A DNA stretch of 64,000 nucleotides, taken from the NCBI RefSeq assembly GCF_000158175.1, contig NZ_DS999411.1, forward strand, positions 481,009 to 545,008. The letters run 5' to 3'. Positions 29,251 to 57,895 of this stretch are shown piece after piece. Both the position numbers and the translations under genes were made by a program. Position 1 is the first letter of the stretch, and each line of letters opens with the position of its first letter. This DNA is from Luminiphilus syltensis NOR5-1B (GTDB lineage Bacteria; Pseudomonadota; Gammaproteobacteria; Pseudomonadales; Halieaceae). The notes below the pieces were generated by a model that was given only the letters and a program-made list of their open reading frames with translations, ran no database searches and was not told the DNA's origin.

Positions 29251-29988
29251 ATGGCTGCAAAGAAAACGACTGAAAAGAAGGCGCCCGCGAAAGCCAAGAC
29301 GGCGAGCAAAGCCAAATCGCCTGCCAAGAAAGCGGCGGCTAAAAAGAGCCCAGTGAAAAAAGCACCCGCCAAGAAAGCAGCGGCGAAAAAGAGCCCGGCG
29401 AAAAAAGCACCCGCCAAGAAAGCAGCGGCGAAAAAGAGCCCGGCGAAAAAAGCACCCGCCAAGAAAGCGGCAACCAGCAAAGCGCCCGCGAAAAAGGCAC
29501 CTGCGGCCAAGAAGAAACCAGCCGCCAAAAAAGCCGCTTCTGCACGCAACGTGGCCCGGGCCGTCGGTGAGGTCCAGAAGTTTGACGACTTCAAGCCTTA
29601 CAAGCCCGGTCGCGGCGAAAGCTACATGAACGATGAACAGCTTGAGCATTTTCGGCAGATTCTGCTGAACTGGCGCGGCGAGTTGGTCGATGAGGTGACG
29701 CAAACCATCTCGCACATGAAAGACGAGGCTGCGAATTTCCCGGATCCGGCAGACCGAGCGACTCAGGAAGAAGAGTTCAGCCTGGAGCTACGCACTCGCG
29801 ATCGTGAACGCAAGCTGATTAAAAAAATAAATTCGACCCTCGAACGCATCAAGATCGATGACTATGGCTACTGCGATGCCTGTGGTATCGAGATCGGGAT
29901 CCAGCGACTTGAGGCGCGACCCACAGCCACACTCTGCATTGACTGCAAAACACTCGCAGAAATCAAGGAGAAGCAGGAGCTCGGTTGA
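29251..29988 (+). CDS. dksA: DksA with a histone-H1-like Lys/Ala/Pro N-terminal tail
   Basis: DksA binds the RNA polymerase secondary channel and works with ppGpp in the stringent response. The last ~150 residues are an ordinary DksA: coiled coil with [12 protein letters not shown] tip (the functional Asp pair region), then the zinc finger [10 protein letters not shown]...CIDC. Ahead of it lies an extra ~90-residue tail built of [14 protein letters not shown]-type repeats, ending near [12 protein letters not shown] chose ATG 29251 ([14 protein letters not shown]), because upstream in-frame sequence is not DksA-like. The tail resembles histone H1 or AlgP C-terminal arms and should bind nucleic acid. 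gluQRS overlaps the stop by 4 bases. Confidence 0.93.
29326..29460 (+). repeat. Three tandem 45-bp units inside dksA
   Basis: Units at 29326-29370, 29371-29415 and 29416-29460 encode 15-residue blocks of the [15 protein letters not shown] type. The last two are identical; the first differs at three positions. Copy number could vary between strains without shifting frame. Confidence 0.93.
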
Positions 29989-49517: not shown

Positions 49518-52205
49518 TCAGAGGGTTCGCGCCACTTCATTGACGTCAAAGACCTCAATGAGGTCGCCGACCTTAACGTCGTTGTAATTCTTCACGCCAA
49601 TACCGCACTCCATGCCATTTCGCACTTCACTGGCATCGTCCTTGAAGCGTCGCAGCGACTCCAGCTCACCCTCGTAAATCACCACGCTGTCGCGCAGTAC
49701 ACGAATAGGCTTGGCGCGATACACCGTTCCCTCGGTCACCATACAGCCGGCAATCTGGCCGAGCTTCGGCGAGCGGAAGACATCGCGGACCTCGGCAATA
49801 CCGACAATTTCTTCGCGCAGTTCCGGCGACAACATACCGGTAAGCGCCGCCTTAACATCGTCGATGAGATCGTAGATGACGTTGTAATACCGCACCTCGA
49901 TACCCTCGTTTTCGGCGACGTTTCGCGCCTTGGAATCTGCACGAACATTGAAGCCGAACAAAATGGCGGAACTGGTCATCGCCAAAGAGACGTCGGTCTC
50001 GGTGATACCACCGACACCGCCGGCAACCACATTCACCTTGACTTCATCATTGCCAAGATCTGACAGCGCACCGAGCAGAGCCTCAAGAGAGCCGCGTACG
50101 TCTGCTTTAACCACCAGATTCAGTGACTCCACTTCACCTGCGGTCATGGTCTCAAACATATTGTCGAGCTTGGCGGCTTGCTGACGGGCCAGTTTGGTAC
50201 TGCGGGTTTTTTCCTGCCGGTAATCGGCGATCTCCCGCGCGCGCTTTTCGCTCTCCACCGCCGCAAACGGATCTCCCGCATCGGGGGTGCCATCGAGTCC
50301 GAGCACCTCGACAGGGATACTCGGTCCGGCCTCTTTGATGGGCTCGCCGTTTTCGTCGAGCATCGCCCGAACACGACCGTACTGCAGGCCCGCAAGAACA
50401 ATATCGCCCTGGCGCAACGTACCGCCCTGGATCAGCAGTGATGCCACAGGGCCTCGACCTTTATCCAATCGGGACTCAATCACAATGCCCTGGGCCGGCA
50501 CATCTTCCGGTGCACTCAGTTCGAGCAGTTCTGACTGGAGAAGAACCGCATCGAGCAGTGCATCAATACCGTCACCGGTATGGGCAGACACCGGCACGAA
50601 CTGGGTATCGCCACCCCACTCCTCGGGGATCACTTCCTTGGCCGACAACTCATTTTTGACTCGGTCCGGATCGGCGCCCTCTTTATCCATCTTGTTGATC
50701 GCCACCACCATGGGGACGCCAGCGGCTCTTGCGTGCTGCACCGCCTCCTCGGTCTGTGGCATAACGCCATCATCGGCAGCCACCACCAGGATCACGATAT
50801 CGGTAGATTTCGCACCACGGGCGCGCATCGAGGTGAACGCCGCGTGTCCAGGGGTATCGAGGAAGGTGATCATGCCGCGGCCGGTCTCGACGTGATAGGC
50901 GCCGATGTGCTGGGTAATGCCACCCGCTTCACCACTCGCTACTTTCGCCTTACGAATGTAGTCGAGTAATGACGTTTTGCCATGATCTACGTGGCCCATT
51001 ACGGTAACCACCGGAGCTCGCGGCAACGGTGTGCCATCCTGGCTGGACAGCGTCTCGACGAGCCGCTCTTCGAGTTCGTCTTCACTGACCAACTTGGCGG
51101 TATGGCCCAGCTCTTCCACGACGAGTACCGCCGTGTCCTGGTCGACCATCTGGTTAATGGTCGCCATCACACCGAGCTTCATCAGTTCTTTGATGACCAA
51201 ACCGGCTTTCACTGCCATTTGCGACGCGAGATCACCCACGCTGATATTCTCGGAAATCTCGACATCGCGAACAATGCGCTCGGTAGGCTGCTCAAAACCG
51301 TGCTTGCTATGCTCCTCGTGGCTCGACTTCTTGCGCCGGCCACCGCGTCGTCGGGCAACGCCCGATTCGACAGCATCGAGCACATTCAGCGATAGATTGT
51401 GACCCCGTTGCTTACCGCGAGCGCCGGGGATATTGGACTTGCTCAGGCGTCCGCGACTGGGTTTCTTGCGCTGTACCTCTTCGCGGGCCGGCGCATCATG
51501 CAATCGCTTGGGCTTGCGATCTGCCGCACCGGCAGAGGCATCGGGCGCAGTCTTGGCGAGCTCGGCCTGACGCTTGGCCTCCTCGGCTTCCGCCTGCTTG
51601 CGCGCTTCCTCTTCCTTGCGCGCCGCAATTGCGGCCTCCATGTCCTGCTGACGTTTTTCCTCTTCACGCTGACGCCGCTGGGCCGCGCGCTGTCGCAGCA
51701 CTTCCGGATCGAGATCCGTCTCATCCTCAGGTTCGGGCTCAACCTCGGGCTCAGCAGCGGCGGGTGTCTCAGCCACGGGGGCCTCTACCGGCTCAGAAAC
51801 GGTGTCGGGTGTTGCCGCTGTCACTTCGACTTCAGGCGCCGCAGCAGTCTGATCTTCAGGTGAGACCGCGTCCGTATCGGCTACTTCAGCCTCAACTTCG
51901 GCTTCCATGTCATCACGCTTGATATAGGTGCGTTTTTTGCGCACTTCTACATTGACGGTGCGCTTACCCGCGCCGCCAGTCCGCAATGTGCTTAACGACT
52001 TACGCTTGAGTGTAATTTTCTTGGGCGCATCACTGCTTTCGCCGTGGCTGCGCTTTAGGTGCGCCAACAGCGTCTGCTTATCTTCATCGGACACTTCCTG
52101 TGCCGCCGAAGAATGCGGCAAGCCCGCCTCCTTCATCTGCGACAACAGCCGTTCCGCCGATGCGCCTACTGTCTTTGCCAGCTGCTCTACTGTCACCTGT
52201 GCCAT
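49518..52205 (-). CDS. infB: Translation initiation factor IF-2
   Basis: GTPase that brings fMet-tRNA to the 30S P site. 895 residues: IF2 N-terminal helical domain ([21 protein letters not shown]), a long Ala/Glu/Arg-rich variable region (about residues 85-270), then the G domain with G1 [10 protein letters not shown]3 DTPGH and G4 NKMD, and domains II-IV ending [19 protein letters not shown]. Operon position nusA-infB-rbfA is canonical. Confidence 0.98.
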
Positions 52206-52257: not shown

Positions 52258-53757
52258 TCAGGAAGCCGATTCCTCCTCAGCGAACCACGGCTCGCGGGCG
52301 GTCATAATCAATGCGGCCGCACGCTCCTCGGTCATATCTTCAATATCCATAATGTCGTCGACACCCTGCTCGGCAAGATCTTCCATGGTGACAATGCCGC
52401 GGCTCGCCAGGACAAAGGCGAGATGCCGTTCCATGCCCTCCATGGCCAGTAAGTCTTCTGCCGGCTCATTGGCACCCAACTGTTCCTCCGAGGCGATCGC
52501 CATGGTCAGCAGCGCATCTTTGGCTCGTGCGCGCAACTCTTCGGAGATATCCTCGTCAAAGCCTTCAATCGACATCATCTCTTCAAGCGGCACGTAAGCC
52601 ACCTCTTCCAGCGTGGTGAAGCCTTCTTCGACCAGAACCCCGGCGACATCTTCATCAACATCGAGAGCGTTCATGAAGGTTTCCATGACCTGGATGGCTT
52701 CAGCCTCCTGCTTCTCGATCGCATCATCCACGCTCATCACATTAATGGTCCACTCGGTCAAATCCGAGGCAAGACGAACATTCTGGCCACCACGGCCGAT
52801 CGCCTGGGCGAGATTGTCCTCGGCGACCGCCACTTCCATGGTGTTGCTGTCTTCGTCGACCACAATCGACTCGACCTCGGCCGGAGACATGGCATTGATG
52901 ACCAGTTGCGCCGCATTATCGTCCCAGAGAATAATGTCAACACGCTCGTTATCGAGCTCATTGGACACCGCCTGAACCCGCGAACCGCGCATACCGACAC
53001 AAGCGCCGACCGGATCGATTCGCTGATCGCCGGTCTTGACCGCGATCTTGGCACGGGAACCCGGATCCCGAGCTGCCGCTCGGATTTGTATGACACCCTC
53101 CGCGATTTCGGGGACCTCTATTTTAAACAACTCAATCAACATTTCCTTGCAGGCGCGGGACAGAATCAATTGTGGTCCCCGCGACTCAGTGTTGATCTCG
53201 GTAAGAATGGCGCGGACACGATCGTTGATTCGGAAGGTCTCACGGCCCACCAGCTCGGTGCGCGGCAGCAAGCCCTCAGCATTGCCGCCGAGATCAACGA
53301 TGACGTTGTCCCGGGTGACTTTCTTGACCGTTCCCGCGAGCAATTCGCCGACGCGGCTCTGATACTGCTCGACGATTTGCGCGCGCTCCGCATCGCGAAC
53401 ACGCTGAACGATGACCTGCTTGGCGGTCTGTGCGGCGATGCGTCCGAAATCCACATTGTCGACGACTTCTTCGTGGACATCGCCGGGCTTCAGTTCGGCA
53501 TTAACCTCAATGGCTTCTTCAGTAGTGAACTGGGTGCCCAACAAAGCCAGCTCACTGTCGGGTACTACCAGCCAACGGCGTGTCGTGACGTAATCGCCGG
53601 TTTCGCGATCGATCTGCACCTCGATGTCCGACTCTTCGTCGTAGCGTTTCTTGGCCGCCGTCGCGAGCGCCAGCTCAATCGCTTCAAAGATGATGTCCTC
53701 TGACACCCCTTTTTCATTCGATACCGCTTCCGCCACCATCAGGATTTCTTTGTTCAT
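52258..53757 (-). CDS. nusA: Transcription elongation/termination factor NusA
   Basis: I chose ATG 53757 ([21 protein letters not shown]) over the upstream frame, since this is the standard NusA N terminus; product 499 residues. Domains are N-terminal RNAP-binding, S1 ([22 protein letters not shown]), KH1 and KH2 ([15 protein letters not shown].., [13 protein letters not shown]), and two C-terminal acidic repeats as in gammaproteobacteria ([32 protein letters not shown]). Confidence 0.97.
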
Positions 53758-53793
53758 TGTCACTCTCTCACCCTTCCCGGTATTCAACCGATT

Positions 53794-54300
53794 TCATTCA
53801 GCTTTGGCACTTTCGCGCTTTAACTTGTTCTTTCCCTTGCCGATTTCAACGCGGGGCTCCACCTTGGCGCGCTCCACCGAATTCAACGGCAATACATACT
53901 CATGCTCACCCGCACGTACCACGACCTCGTCCCCTTCCACCCCGACCAGCCAGCCACGAAACTTACGCCGGCCCTCGAAGGGCATCCGCAGGCGAACTTC
54001 TATCGGCTCGCCGATATACAGGCGATACTGCTCAGGACGGAACAGCAGCCGGTCGATTCCTGGCGAGGAGACCTCCAGCGTAAACTCGGTCTGGATGGGA
54101 TCCTCCACATCGAGTACACCACTGATATGGCGACTCACCATGGCGCAGTCGTCGACCGTCACACCCTCCTCACGATCGATGTAAACGCGAAAAGTCGGCT
54201 TTCGAAACGGGGGCAGTAATTCGAGGCCCCACAATTCAAACCCCAGCGACTCGATGGTCGGTGTCAGCAATTCGCTCAACTGGGTGGTCTTGCCTGCCAT
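53794..54300 (-). CDS. rimP: Ribosome maturation factor RimP
   Basis: Needed for 30S assembly. The 168-residue protein begins MAGKTTQLSELLTPTIESLGFELWGLELL and has FRVYIDREEGVTVDDCAMVSRHISGVLDVEDPI and the SSPGIDRLL motif. The basic tail is typical. First protein gene of the nusA operon, 36 bases ahead of nusA, with the initiator tRNA gene upstream as at E. coli metY. Confidence 0.96.
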   Translation of the reverse strand: MAGKTTQLSELLTPTIESLGFELWGLELLPPFRKPTFRVYIDREEGVTVDDCAMVSRHISGVLDVEDPIQTEFTLEVSSPGIDRLLFRPEQYRLYIGEPIEVRLRMPFEGRRKFRGWLVGVEGDEVVVRAGEHEYVLPLNSVERAKVEPRVEIGKGKNKLKRESAKAE

Positions 54301-54357
54301 CTAATCGATTGATCCCCAATCTATTGTGTTATTCGCCTGTCCACATTCAACAGACAC

Positions 54358-54380
54358 AAAAAAGCCCCAAAGAGGGGCTT
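54358..54380 (-). terminator. Terminator between initiator tRNA and rimP
   Basis: Stem AAGCCCC (54362-54368) / GGGGCTT (54374-54380), loop AAAGA, then a T-run on the minus strand. It separates the tRNA transcript from rimP. Confidence 0.88.
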
Positions 54381-54420
54381 CCACAAATGATGGTTACCTG
54401 AGCAGTAGGCACCATCTAAA

Positions 54421-54497
<77 letters not shown>

Positions 54498-54688
54498 TCA
54501 AAACTTGCTGTGACCGCCCCCTAGTACACCAAAACGCTCGGTGTTGGCTGTCACGCCTGACTTGAATAAATGCTTCAAATCAGAGGCGCCGAAGTATAGG
54601 TAGTGCTTTTGATAACGTCAAGGGCGACACACTGCAAAATGTACAGTGATTGCCTTGCCACCCTCAGTGATCGCTGCATTTACGGTCG

Positions 54689-54712
54689 AAAAAGCCCCAC
54701 TTTACGTGGAGC
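54689..54712 (-). terminator. Repeat-unit terminator (most distal)
   Basis: Minus strand: GCTCCAC stem, GTAAA loop, GTGGGGC, then TTTTT. Same element as in the other units. Confidence 0.85.
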
Positions 54713-54842
54713 TTCTTCGGTATTTGGTGCGGAAGGCGGGGTGATTGCCACCGGCAATCACGGCCGAGCCCGGCGCGACTCTGGCGCGACGGAAAAAGCG
54801 AGGCCTGGAATAGTCCCGCATGCAACGCGTACCCCAGAAACG

Positions 54843-54867
54843 AAAAAAGCCCCACTTTACGTGGAGC
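54843..54867 (-). terminator. Repeat-unit terminator
   Basis: GCTCCAC/GTGGGGC stem with loop GTAAA and six T's; one extra T makes this unit 155 rather than 154 bp. Confidence 0.87.
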
Positions 54868-54997
54868 CTCTTCGTTGTATGGTGCGGAAGGCGGGGTGAT
54901 TGCCACCGGCAATCACGGCCGAGCCCGGCGCGACTCTGGCGCGACGGAAAAAGCGAGGCCTGGAATAGCCCCGCATGCAACGCGTACCCCAGAAACG

Positions 54998-55021
54998 AAA
55001 AAGCCCCACTAAACGTGGAGC
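54998..55021 (-). terminator. Repeat-unit terminator
   Basis: Same stem with loop GTTTA (TAAAC on the plus strand) and five T's. Confidence 0.85.
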
Positions 55022-55151
55022 CTCTTCGTTGTATGGTGCGGAAGGCGGGGTGATTGCCACCGGCAATCACGGCCGAGCCCGGCGCGACTCTGGCGCGACG
55101 GAAAAAGCGAGGCCTGGAATAGTCCCGCATGCAACGCGTACCCCAGAAACG

Positions 55152-55175
55152 AAAAAGCCCCACTAAACGTGGAGC
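55152..55175 (-). terminator. Terminator directly after tRNA-Leu
   Basis: First of the series, 12 bases beyond the CCA end. Stem GCTCCAC/GTGGGGC, five T's. If it were fully efficient, the three downstream copies would rarely be transcribed. Confidence 0.88.
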
Positions 55176-55187
55176 CTCTTCGTTGTA

Positions 55188-55273
55188 TGGTGCGGAAGGC
55201 GGGACTTGAACCCGCACAGCCAATGGCCACTACCCCCTCAAGATAGCGTGTCTACCAATTCCACCACTTCCGC
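55188..55273 (-). tRNA. tRNA-Leu (GAG)
   Basis: 86 nt class II tRNA with encoded CCA, acceptor GCGGAAG/CTTCCGC, anticodon GAG in the loop CTTGAGG, and a long variable arm (GTGGCCATTGGCTG). Same position as E. coli leuU, just after secG. Its 3' end is duplicated in the adjoining repeat array. Confidence 0.97.
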
Positions 55274-55284
55274 AAATACTGTCC

Positions 55285-55701
55285 TCAACCCGAGGGGATC
55301 TCTGAATCCGTGCCAGCGGCACCTGACTCGCTACCGTCAATCTGAGGAATTTCGCTCGACGATTCTAGCACAGGTGCTTCGAATCCCGCCTGATCTATGG
55401 GCAGCGCTTCAGGCGCACTGGATGACGCCTCAACGGGGATCTCAAAGCCGAGATCCTCATCGCCAGCCGTCCGGCTGTCGGCGATCATGGCCAGACTGAA
55501 GCTCGAGGCAAAAAACGCTGCGGACAACCACGCCGTCGATTTGGTCAGCACATTGGTCGTGCCCGTGCTGCCAAACAGCGTCTGTGACGCACCTGCGCCA
55601 AAAGAGGCCCCGATGTCAGCGCCTTTGCCCTGTTGCAACATGATCAAACCAATAATCGCCAGTGCGACAAACAGGTGACCCACTAAAATCAATTGTTCCA
55701 T
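55285..55701 (-). CDS. secG: Preprotein translocase SecG with an acidic C-terminal tail
   Basis: Small subunit of SecYEG. The first ~75 residues show the two helices and GKGADIGASFGAGASQTLFGSTGTTNVLTKSTAWLSAAFF, the SecG hallmark. A ~60-residue acidic, Ser/Glu/Pro-rich tail follows (EASSSAPEALPIDQAG..), of no clear function. 138 residues against about 110 in E. coli. Followed closely by tRNA-Leu. Confidence 0.96.
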   Translation of the reverse strand: MEQLILVGHLFVALAIIGLIMLQQGKGADIGASFGAGASQTLFGSTGTTNVLTKSTAWLSAAFFASSFSLAMIADSRTAGDEDLGFEIPVEASSSAPEALPIDQAGFEAPVLESSSEIPQIDGSESGAAGTDSEIPSG

Positions 55702-55718
55702 TCTTCCTCCGTGACGCG

Positions 55719-56456
55719 CTATGCCGCGGTCACAATCTGCCAGAAGCTCTCGGCTTCAAGTGAGGCGCCGCCAACCAGCGCCCCATCAATATTGTCACAG
55801 GCAAACAAACCACCCGCCGTACTCGGCTTTACGCTGCCCCCGTACAGGACTCGCAGCGCTCGGCCCGATTCTCCATAGAGTTCCACCAACACCTGGCGTA
55901 TCACCCCATGCATCTCATCAGCCTGCTCAGGAGTTGCCGTCTCGCCGGTGCCAATCGCCCAGATAGGCTCGTAAGCAACGACCAGATTCTCTGCGGCAAC
56001 ACCTTCAAGCGACGCCCGAACCTGACTGGCCACACGTTGTATGTGATCGCCCCGCTTGCGCTCTTCAAGCGATTCTCCAACGCAAACTACTGCACATAAA
56101 CCCTGCTGCTGTACCGCCACCGCCTTGAGCGCCACACCCGCATCGCTTTCGGCGTGGTATTGCCGCCGCTCCGAGTGGCCGACAATACTCCACCGGCACC
56201 CGACATCCGCCAGCATTGCTGCCGACACCTCGCCGGTAAAAGCGCCCTCGGTGTTAACAGAGCAGTCCTGGGCGCCAACACCCACCTCGGGCAACACCGC
56301 AGCCAGCGTCGCCAGGTATGGGTATGGCGTGCAAATAACCACCTGCTGCGCATCCAACCGTCCGGCACTGAGTGCTTTCAGCTCAATCGCAAACTCGCGG
56401 ATCCGCTCATTCGAGCCGAACAACTTCCAGTTACCGATAACCAGCTTATCCGCCAT
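55719..56456 (-). CDS. tpiA: Triosephosphate isomerase
   Basis: Interconverts the glycolytic trioses. The 245-residue barrel has NWKLFGS (residues 6-12, Lys), the His in IVGHSERRQY, the catalytic Glu in VVAYEPIWAIGTG, and the LYGGSVKP phosphate loop. Inserted between glmM and secG, which are neighbours in E. coli; this order occurs in Pseudomonas. Confidence 0.97.
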   Translation of the reverse strand: MADKLVIGNWKLFGSNERIREFAIELKALSAGRLDAQQVVICTPYPYLATLAAVLPEVGVGAQDCSVNTEGAFTGEVSAAMLADVGCRWSIVGHSERRQYHAESDAGVALKAVAVQQQGLCAVVCVGESLEERKRGDHIQRVASQVRASLEGVAAENLVVAYEPIWAIGTGETATPEQADEMHGVIRQVLVELYGESGRALRVLYGGSVKPSTAGGLFACDNIDGALVGGASLEAESFWQIVTAA

Positions 56457-56540: not shown

Positions 56541-56565
56541 CAGGTCAGGTCAGGTCAGGTCAGGT
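56541..56565. repeat. Five-copy pentanucleotide repeat over the glmM stop
   Basis: (CAGGT)5 on the plus strand, read as CTGAC units in glmM. The stop TGA lies within the first three units. Gains or losses of units further on do not alter the protein, as long as at least three remain. Confidence 0.9.
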
Positions 56566-57895
56566 CAGCAATCGTATCCGCCATCGAGTGCGCGAGCTGG
56601 TGAATAGTATCCTGATCCTCACCCTCGACCATCACCCGAATCACGGGTTCGGTCCCGGAGGGGCGGAGCAGGACGCGCCCACGTCCTTCCAGAGACTTCT
56701 CAGCCGCCGCGGTGGCGGCCTGCACCTGCGGATGATCCCGCAACTGGGCCCCATTGGTAACCGGTACGTTGACAAGAACCTGGGGCATTTTGCACATACC
56801 GCCGCGCAATTCCCCCAGCGACATTTCCGTCATCACTATCGCTGCGAGTACCTGAAGGGCAGACACGATCCCGTCGCCCGTTGTTGTCACATCGGAGCAA
56901 ATAATATGCCCGGATGATTCACCACCGAGGTGCCAGCCCTGAGCATTCATGATTTCACGAACGTAGCGGTCACCCACATTGGCGCGTGCGAGCTTCAATC
57001 CGTGTTCCTGCAAGGCCAGCTCAAGACCCATATTGGACATCAGCGTGCCGACGACGCCAGAGTCCGATCGCCCCGTCATCACCCGATGCGTGGCCAGCAC
57101 GTACAGCAGCTCATCACCATCGACAACCGAGCCATCGGCATCGACAAACAGCACACGATCACCGTCGCCGTCAAAAGCAATCCCCAAATCGGCCCCCGCT
57201 TCAATCACCGCCGCAATAAGGGCATCCGGTGCAGTGGAACCAAACTCATGGTTGATGTTGTAGCCATCAGGGCTCGCACCAATAACGGTGATCTCGGCAC
57301 CCAGCTCAGCAAATACCGCCGGGGCAATGTGATAAGTCGCCCCGTTGGCGCAATCGAGCACTATTTTCAGCCCCCGGAGACTCACGTCTTCGGGTAGGGT
57401 TGATTTGCAAAACTCGATATAGCGACCTGCAGCATCGACGACACGGCTCGCTTTACCCAGCTTACGCGAGTCGACCGTTTCCAGTGGCATCTCCAGTGCG
57501 GCCTCGATGGCCAGCTCGGTCTCATCGGACAACTTCGCACCCTTATCGCAGAAGAACTTGATGCCATTGTCATAAAAGGGATTGTGCGAGGCACTGATGA
57601 CTATCCCCGCTGCCGCGTTCTGTGAGCGGGTCAGTAGTGCCACTGCGGGGGTAGGCATCGGACCCAGCAAGCGCACATCTGCCCCTGCAGCCACCAGCCC
57701 GGCCTCGAGTGCAGACTCAAACATGTAGCCGGATACTCGGGTGTCCTTGCCGATAATCACCGTCGGTTTACCCTGCCACTGATCAGCGAACACACGGCCG
57801 CAGGCCCAACCCAGCTGCAGCATAAAATCGGGGGAAATCGGTGCTGTACCCACCCGGCCACGAATACCGTCGGTGCCGAAATATTTCTTTTTCAC
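56555..57895 (-). CDS. glmM: Phosphoglucosamine mutase
   Basis: Makes glucosamine 1-phosphate for peptidoglycan and LPS. 446 residues: [14 protein letters not shown] start, active Ser in [19 protein letters not shown] (about residue 100), metal loop DGDGDR, and C-terminal [19 protein letters not shown] overlap with folP. Its stop codon falls in a (CTGAC)5 repeat. Confidence 0.97.

Follow-up and report, generated by a model that had tools for sequence, protein, structure and literature searches.

The window, the whole stretch of 64,000 nucleotides of Luminiphilus syltensis NOR5-1B (contig NZ_DS999411.1) that was analyzed, contains a tRNA-Leu(GAG) gene directly followed by a tandem array, behind which lie tRNA-Met and three protein-coding ORFs. 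The features are listed below in window coordinates.

55188-55273, minus strand: tRNA-Leu(GAG) (ARAGORN); its last 16 nt (55188-55203) are the repeated tail
55151-55187, minus strand: first terminator-like hairpin and U-run (-19.4 kcal/mol, z -6.6 against shuffles)
55034-55187, minus strand: unit 1 (154 bp), composed of terminator, spacer and tail copy (55034-55049)
55050-55070, minus strand: 9-bp hairpin GTGATTGCC-GGT-GGCAATCAC of unit 1, found also at 54896-54916 and 54741-54761
54880-55033, minus strand: unit 2 (154 bp), with its tail copy at 54880-54895
54725-54879, minus strand: unit 3 (155 bp), with its tail copy at 54725-54740
54687-54724, minus strand: rump unit, a fourth, diverged terminator copy at which the array ends
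54593-54621, minus strand: weak sigma-70-like promoter match (TTGACG-17-TATACT) before tRNA-Met, the one match in 53700-55800, where shuffles average 0.8
54421-54497, minus strand: tRNA-Met(CAU) (ARAGORN), the first gene behind the array
53794-54300, 52258-53787 and 49518-52205: ORFs behind tRNA-Met that we take, from their translations, to be rimP-, nusA- and infB-like

The minus-strand ORF ahead of tRNA-Leu(GAG) is presumably secG-like, again from its translation.

Tandem Repeats Finder delimited one array here, spanning 54687-55203 with a period of 154, 3.4 copies, 97% matches and a score of 962; a 154-bp unit that recurs with such fidelity could not plausibly arise by chance. A repeat search of the window returned three copies of 166 nt, whose identity to the reference copy was 95-100%, and four copies of 52 nt that comprise tail plus terminator (92-100%) at steps of 155, 154 and 154 bp. 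Together with ARAGORN, these programs confirmed the observation of an earlier note, made from the sequence alone, that the last 16 bp of tRNA-Leu(GAG) occur three times at 154-155-bp steps. The tRNA gene and the three units thus provide four copies of the last 16 nt of the tRNA with a terminator hairpin. The 16-nt tail, CCCGCCTTCCGCACCA, closes each unit, is the same at 16/16 positions in all four copies, and consists of the 3' strand of the T-stem, the 3' strand of the acceptor and the CCA of tRNA-Leu(GAG). As in tyrT/RtT arrays, the 3' end of the tRNA is thus present in every one of the tandem repeats that adjoin the gene, and, as in attachment repeats of integrative elements, the direct repeat of that end runs from T-stem to CCA.

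Each of the three units contains, as the earlier note had described, the 9-bp hairpin and a double GTCGCGCC (GGCGCGAC on the plus strand); the 8-mer of the GTCGCGCC pair has 11 occurrences in the window, the array accounting for six, where 6.0 were expected. Units 1-3 are 97-99% identical to one another, which fits the recent expansion or gene conversion that had been suggested. The description of one and the same terminator holds for copies 1-3 (91-100% identity over 45 nt), whereas the fourth is homologous yet diverged (74% over 45 nt) and is followed by sequence at random identity, a leftover GGCAATCAC being the exception. The genome assembly consists of one contig (completeness 99.83). Elsewhere in the window, CAGGT is repeated 5.6 times at 56541-56568, overlapping the 3' end of a presumably glmM-like ORF (56555-57895, minus strand), and a 45-bp tandem repeat (4 copies, 90% matches) lies at 29323-29501.

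When the whole array was used as the query, 57 of 58 genomes gave a match; among the matches listed, only that in the L. syltensis genome (G000) extended beyond position 136 of 587, that is, beyond the tRNA and first terminator region. We then compared 30 tRNA-Leu loci, from this genome and 29 relatives, of which 29 had at least 300 bp downstream. The last 9 nt of tRNA-Leu recurred downstream in two of them, G000 (+154, +308 and +463) and G002 (one short copy at +136), and an antisense 9-nt match was found in 1/30. The G002 unit has a different spacer and keeps 9 nt of the tail, and therefore represents an event independent of the G000 array. Further, G010 possesses one copy of a spacer related to that of the window (GCATGCGGGAC, CCTCGCTT, GGGCTCGGCCGT) behind tRNA-Leu and no second tail, so the flank can exist before or without an array. 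The shared body of G010 and G002 was spotted by eye and aligned.

A BLAST search of the relatives with the spacer gave, outside the L. syltensis genome, only matches of 15-44 bp (E 0.013-0.98). The window unit had no match at E<=1e-5 among plasmids and phages, and the 21-nt hairpin had no exact match among viral contigs. The earlier note had also proposed a search of other genomes for tRNA-Leu tail repeats. A scan of named genomes, which may leave the L. syltensis genome or very near ones outside it, for two exact tails at a 133-163-bp period found three loci, none with a tRNA gene; by eye, one resembled a CRISPR-type array (L241) and two resembled repetitive DNA (L242 and L243).

Tail copies behind other genes were sought in three genomes (108 tRNA and tmRNA genes) using the last 14 nt, up to 2 mismatches and up to 1.2 kb downstream, with antisense tails as the control. 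In L. syltensis, 3 of 40 genes had copies: tRNA-Leu, tRNA-Asn (+153 and +306) and tmRNA (+157). Two of 39 genes did so in G031, namely tRNA-Met (+120) and tRNA-Val (+187, counted although the copy has 2 mismatches), and 1 of 29 in G002 (tRNA-Met, +119), whose tRNA-Leu copy is too short for the 14-nt test. The antisense control gave 0/40 in L. syltensis and 0 in each of the other two genomes. When the tails of other genes were used, 0.6-0.8 genes per genome scored, presumably because of neighboring tRNA genes. Tail copies at tRNA-Met occur in G031, G017 and G002 (the tRNA-Met locus of G019 yielded no row). Eighteen tmRNA loci of the genus are full-length, and for 14 of them the downstream sequence extends to 300 bp or more. 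Of these 14, 5, that of L. syltensis included, have a tail copy between +152 and +199, and in G016 a second one, altered, lies at about +311. Two tmRNA matches were dropped, L298 at +242 and L293 at +1017 (2 mismatches). In two other families of the order, tmRNA tails recur at 148- and 149-bp steps in G053, and a tRNA-Ala tail is copied at +149 in G191.

The periods of these unrelated loci range from 119 to 199 bp. The left boundary of the copy lies near the T-stem at the Leu, Met, tmRNA, Tyr and Pro loci, while the length of tail retained falls to 9 nt in the G002 tRNA-Leu copy and 7 nt at tRNA-Asn; the core is therefore not constant. Rather than being a single oddity, such arrays look like something that bacterial chromosomes form repeatedly and that has been little described. 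At a tRNA-Leu(CAA) gene of G278 (L332, 1354-1620), the 5' end and leader appear, by eye, to be duplicated upstream of the gene beside a match to module B (described below), in what appears to be a 5'-end counterpart of the tail repeats.

A hairpin and U-run follows each of the four Leu tails, one genuine and three copied, so that, in structure only, several hairpin and T-run signals stand in series behind one gene as in tandem intrinsic terminators. A consensus terminator scanner listed none of these four hairpins and one other site, in the unit 2 spacer; we think that the four were passed over because the stem of each continues into the T-run. Of 15 extra tail copies from the Leu, Asn and genus tmRNA arrays, 14 had behind them a hairpin with a folding energy of -15.6 kcal/mol or lower, the remaining one being the G036 tmRNA copy; the T-run behind the first G066 copy is weak, and G075, which was entered in this tabulation, yielded no row. 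In contrast, no strong hairpin with a T-run followed the tails of the tRNA-Met copies or of E. coli tyrV. The suggestion of multiple terminators is plausible on these structures, but the tRNA-Met and tyrV tails show that termination is not a general reason for tail repeats.

We compared neighboring copies over the 16-nt tail and the next 105 nt, for which random letters give 43-46% identity (sd 6-8). The 40 nt before the tail are uninformative for the first pair of any array, because there the gene is compared with a spacer. For the interior copies of the window Leu array, the Asn array and the G010 and G016 tmRNA arrays, the next 105 nt were 80-100% identical. In contrast, the three pairs at tRNA-Met and those at the tmRNA of G036 and G003 had a tail identity of 94-100% and only 39-59% over the next 105 nt, little more than random. 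The flanks of the G066 and G000 tmRNA pairs were intermediate (59-67%), and the second G053 pair and the last unit of E. coli tyrV break off after the tail. Pairs with near-identical flanks may be read as expansion of whole units, and pairs that share the tail only as products of recombination with the tail as the core.

Evidence that the tail may serve for integration came from the relatives. Of the 17 stretches downstream of tRNA-Leu, 15 were scanned (the short L257 and L261 were left out), and four (G006, G016, G021 and G022) contained an exact copy of the last 12 nt of tRNA-Leu(GAG) 4.3-12.5 kb downstream; a distant copy in G029 with 1 mismatch, inside an ORF, was dropped. G021 encodes an integrase directly behind tRNA-Leu (PHROG_1, E 1e-11; no Pfam match at 0.1) and, in the same stretch, a DUF5906/VapE-like protein, while a crude motif search found no integrase in the G006, G016 and G022 stretches. 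At tmRNA, an integrase arm domain (PF13356, 8.6e-28) was found on a fragment in G009, and in G066 tail copies lie in a 2.7-kb locus without a tmRNA gene. From the distant tail copies, the G021 integrase and the G009 and G066 loci, it is very likely that this tail is an integration site in the genus.

The Burkholderia "tRNA-SSR" islands likewise have the tRNA end (14 bp or more) duplicated downstream (PMC2612704), as in the window and at tRNA-Leu(GAG) in relatives. However, such islands are one kb-sized element, whereas the window has three near-identical 154-bp units. Between its copies, which leave room for only 154-155 bp, there is no island or gene, and no mobile cargo with an integrase. 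The tail identity is 16 nt in the window units versus 14 nt, counted by eye, at the islands of the relatives. In two of these, G021 and G022, the left side of the island tail copy looks similar to the GTCGCGCC pair, a likeness that is an unproven lead. In G317, of the same family, an element at 755-1420 of L325 has an ORF for a LAGLIDADG endonuclease (PF00961, E 7.8e-6); on one side of it stands a complete tmRNA whose T-arm is altered and, 662 bp further along, a displaced copy of the usual tmRNA 3' end with its terminator. It looks like a very small tmRNA-targeting element and, by its layout, is not an intron.

Some unit bodies are shared between loci. A BLAST search of 57 genus genomes with the G002 unit gave 13 non-self matches at E below 1e-4, of which 12 adjoin tRNA-Met, tmRNA or a tmRNA tail copy, while a contig ends at the remaining one. 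Their common part, module B, folds into two hairpins that show compensatory changes: 91.8% of cells are paired, both partners differ in six pairs, and the covariation is 0.210 versus 0.104 shuffled. The module B model, R1, had 18 matches in 12 of the 57 genomes, of which 14 were its own training sequences and 4 were new, forming a cluster behind an RND-pump-like operon of L. syltensis about 5.5 kb from tRNA-Asn. This cluster (L240, G000:C1:2079340-2079593), downstream of tRNA-Asn and behind genes that we take to be a MarR/HlyD/RND-like operon, comprises approximately five head-to-tail palindromic module B units of about 49 bp and one copy of module A, a second body that is common to tRNA-Asn, tRNA-Met and the RND cluster.

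Across the order, R1 matched 12 of 293 genomes at E<=1e-4, L. syltensis included; a tRNA or tmRNA gene accompanies 7 of the 17 new loci (two of the 7 are the same tmRNA), and several others lie, by eye, behind terminators of protein genes. In three of the order's members (L329, L330 and L333), module-B-like palindromes stand, by eye, directly after terminator-like sequences away from tRNA genes, which suggests a wider family of post-terminator palindromes. The Leu spacer of the window convincingly contains neither module, and R1 does not match the array. A link of the window unit to module A by one 19-bp match to the G002 tRNA-Met unit (nominal E 0.004) was too weak and was set aside. REP/BIME elements likewise have GC-rich palindromes, and module B of the related units is a covarying two-hairpin structure. 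However, mobilization by a RAYT was rejected, as the Y1 transposase domain PF01797 was found in 0 of 57 genus genomes (the E. coli control was positive). The window array also lies outside the R1 matches.

The parallel with E. coli tyrT that the earlier note had drawn is apt. Behind tyrV, tails recur at +178, +356 and +534, in exact 178-bp steps, and, as in the window, tandem units with a hairpin-rich body each end in the tail of the tRNA, here the last ~19 nt of tRNA-Tyr. The Rfam RtT model (RF00391), which gave four matches at the E. coli tyrV locus as a positive control, had no match at E<=10 in window positions 54600-55300 and none at the gathering score in five other array loci. The body thus lies outside the RtT family, in agreement with the proposal of an independent case at a different tRNA; that proposal understated the case, since two more loci lie in the same genome and tRNA-Pro units in E. 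coli and Salmonella. An RtT unit was found at E<=1e-5 in 4,695 of 5,426 E. coli genomes, at 1-14 places each (median 3; the counts may include the tRNA-Pro locus), and this range between strains is as unequal exchange would give.

A link to a tRNA-Tyr operon is absent from the window, where the tRNA is tRNA-Leu(GAG), and RtT units also occur behind tRNA-Pro, with one tail copy in E. coli CKJ_1000_3.1 (L339) and two in Salmonella Infantis SARB27 (L340). In these, an 18-nt tail recurs at +168 (in Salmonella also at +337), and the parts are ordered as in the window, each tail being followed by a terminator-like GC hairpin and T-run and then by a structured body; the body, unlike that of the window, is annotated as RtT, and the tRNA, tail and terminator sequences differ. 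We conclude that the window locus is a tandem array of tRNA-tail/terminator units with RtT-array architecture that does not belong to the RtT family, an assignment that is well supported. To our knowledge, the E. coli tyrT repeats have been treated so far as a peculiarity of one operon, and a literature search, in which coverage of subscription journals was poor, found no description of such arrays.

The explanation that we favor, with a probability of about 0.5, combines a breakpoint at the tail, unequal exchange and stacked terminators that would shield tRNA-Met-rimP-nusA-infB. The end of tRNA and tmRNA genes from T-stem to CCA, the same stretch that islands duplicate in relatives, would act as a recombination breakpoint. 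Once two copies of tail and flank stood side by side, unequal exchange could multiply and homogenize the whole unit. For this origin taken by itself, we put the odds at about even. RNA polymerase leaving tRNA-Leu would then meet up to four terminators before the promoter of tRNA-Met-rimP-nusA-infB, and four terminators in series would therefore lessen read-through of a strong tRNA gene into the operon. The tail copies themselves would code for nothing. Such stacked termination is plausible and is the function we prefer; the array may equally do nothing. Against this explanation, the window units contain neither a gene nor an integrase and share 16 nt rather than the 14 nt of the islands, the tails at tRNA-Met and tyrV lack terminators, the core is not constant, the G066 and G000 tmRNA flanks are also related, so that tail-only identity is not the rule, and slippage at palindromes would also give tandem units.

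Such slippage is part of a simpler account, which we regard as possible although on the unlikely side. In this account the units arose by ordinary tandem duplication, through replication slippage or template switching at palindromes, and were kept by drift; the tail was included by accident and nothing was selected. The whole-unit identity of the Leu and Asn arrays, the palindromes in each unit and the occurrence of repeats in just 2 of 30 tRNA-Leu loci agree with it. However, neither the tail-only identity of the Met and two tmRNA pairs nor a left boundary that lies near the T-stem at five kinds of locus is expected from random end points.

The tail-only identity of some neighbors also prompts a more speculative idea, which we consider doubtful: that the units are gene-free mobile cassettes of ~120-200 bp, each with a tail copy and usually a terminator, that insert at the 3' ends of tRNA and tmRNA genes through site-specific recombination and pile up like integron cassettes, with RtT at tRNA-Tyr and tRNA-Pro among them. 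The bodies common to different tRNA genes (modules A and B, and RtT at Tyr and Pro) and the spread of periods speak for it as well.

Less probable still is that the array yields small RNAs, the role given to rtT in E. coli annotation; read-through transcripts would then be cut near the tail copies to release RNAs of ~150 nt. The layout is that of tyrT/RtT and of the RtT units at tRNA-Pro, and some bodies contain a stretch antisense to the T-arm of their own tRNA (GCGGGACT in the window unit, GGGGAAGGAT in tyrV). In 8 of 17 units, representing 5 of 7 gene types, no more than 1 of the 36-48 other 3' ends matched as well, the background tails being those of G000 and G031 only, and the other 9 units were nothing special. 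This stretch is a lead only, because it was noticed before testing and many units are related. Against this role, the fold of the spacer by itself is no more stable than that of shuffles (z -0.6; the whole Leu unit has z -3.4), positions 54600-55300 have no Rfam match, and a terminator precedes each spacer, so that little RNA would be expected from the units.

The earlier note had also suggested that tail copies may be decoys for processing enzymes, which they would be as tRNA-like minihelices ending in CCA; 17 of 19 folded copies do end in an intact CCA or CCCA-type end and ACCA is unpaired when the complete window unit is folded, yet only 4 of 19 exceeded the mean of shuffled controls and none by more than 1.2 sd, so this suggestion found no support and is highly improbable. 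An assembly or collapse artefact is just as improbable, for although short near-perfect repeats are easily miscounted, the units carry distinguishing differences, other genomes have comparable arrays and many E. coli records contain RtT repeats.

The same layout, with other bodies, lies behind tRNA-Leu, tRNA-Asn, tRNA-Met, tRNA-Ala, tmRNA and tRNA-Pro, and thus constitutes a class rather than the oddity of a single operon. This bears on annotation, as the tRNA-Pro unit of E. coli is labeled as RtT "processed from tyrT transcript" though the locus is not tyrT. The class also offers independent instances in which to ask for what reason genes of stable RNAs re-create their 3' ends, whether as termination stacks, integration scars or small cassettes.
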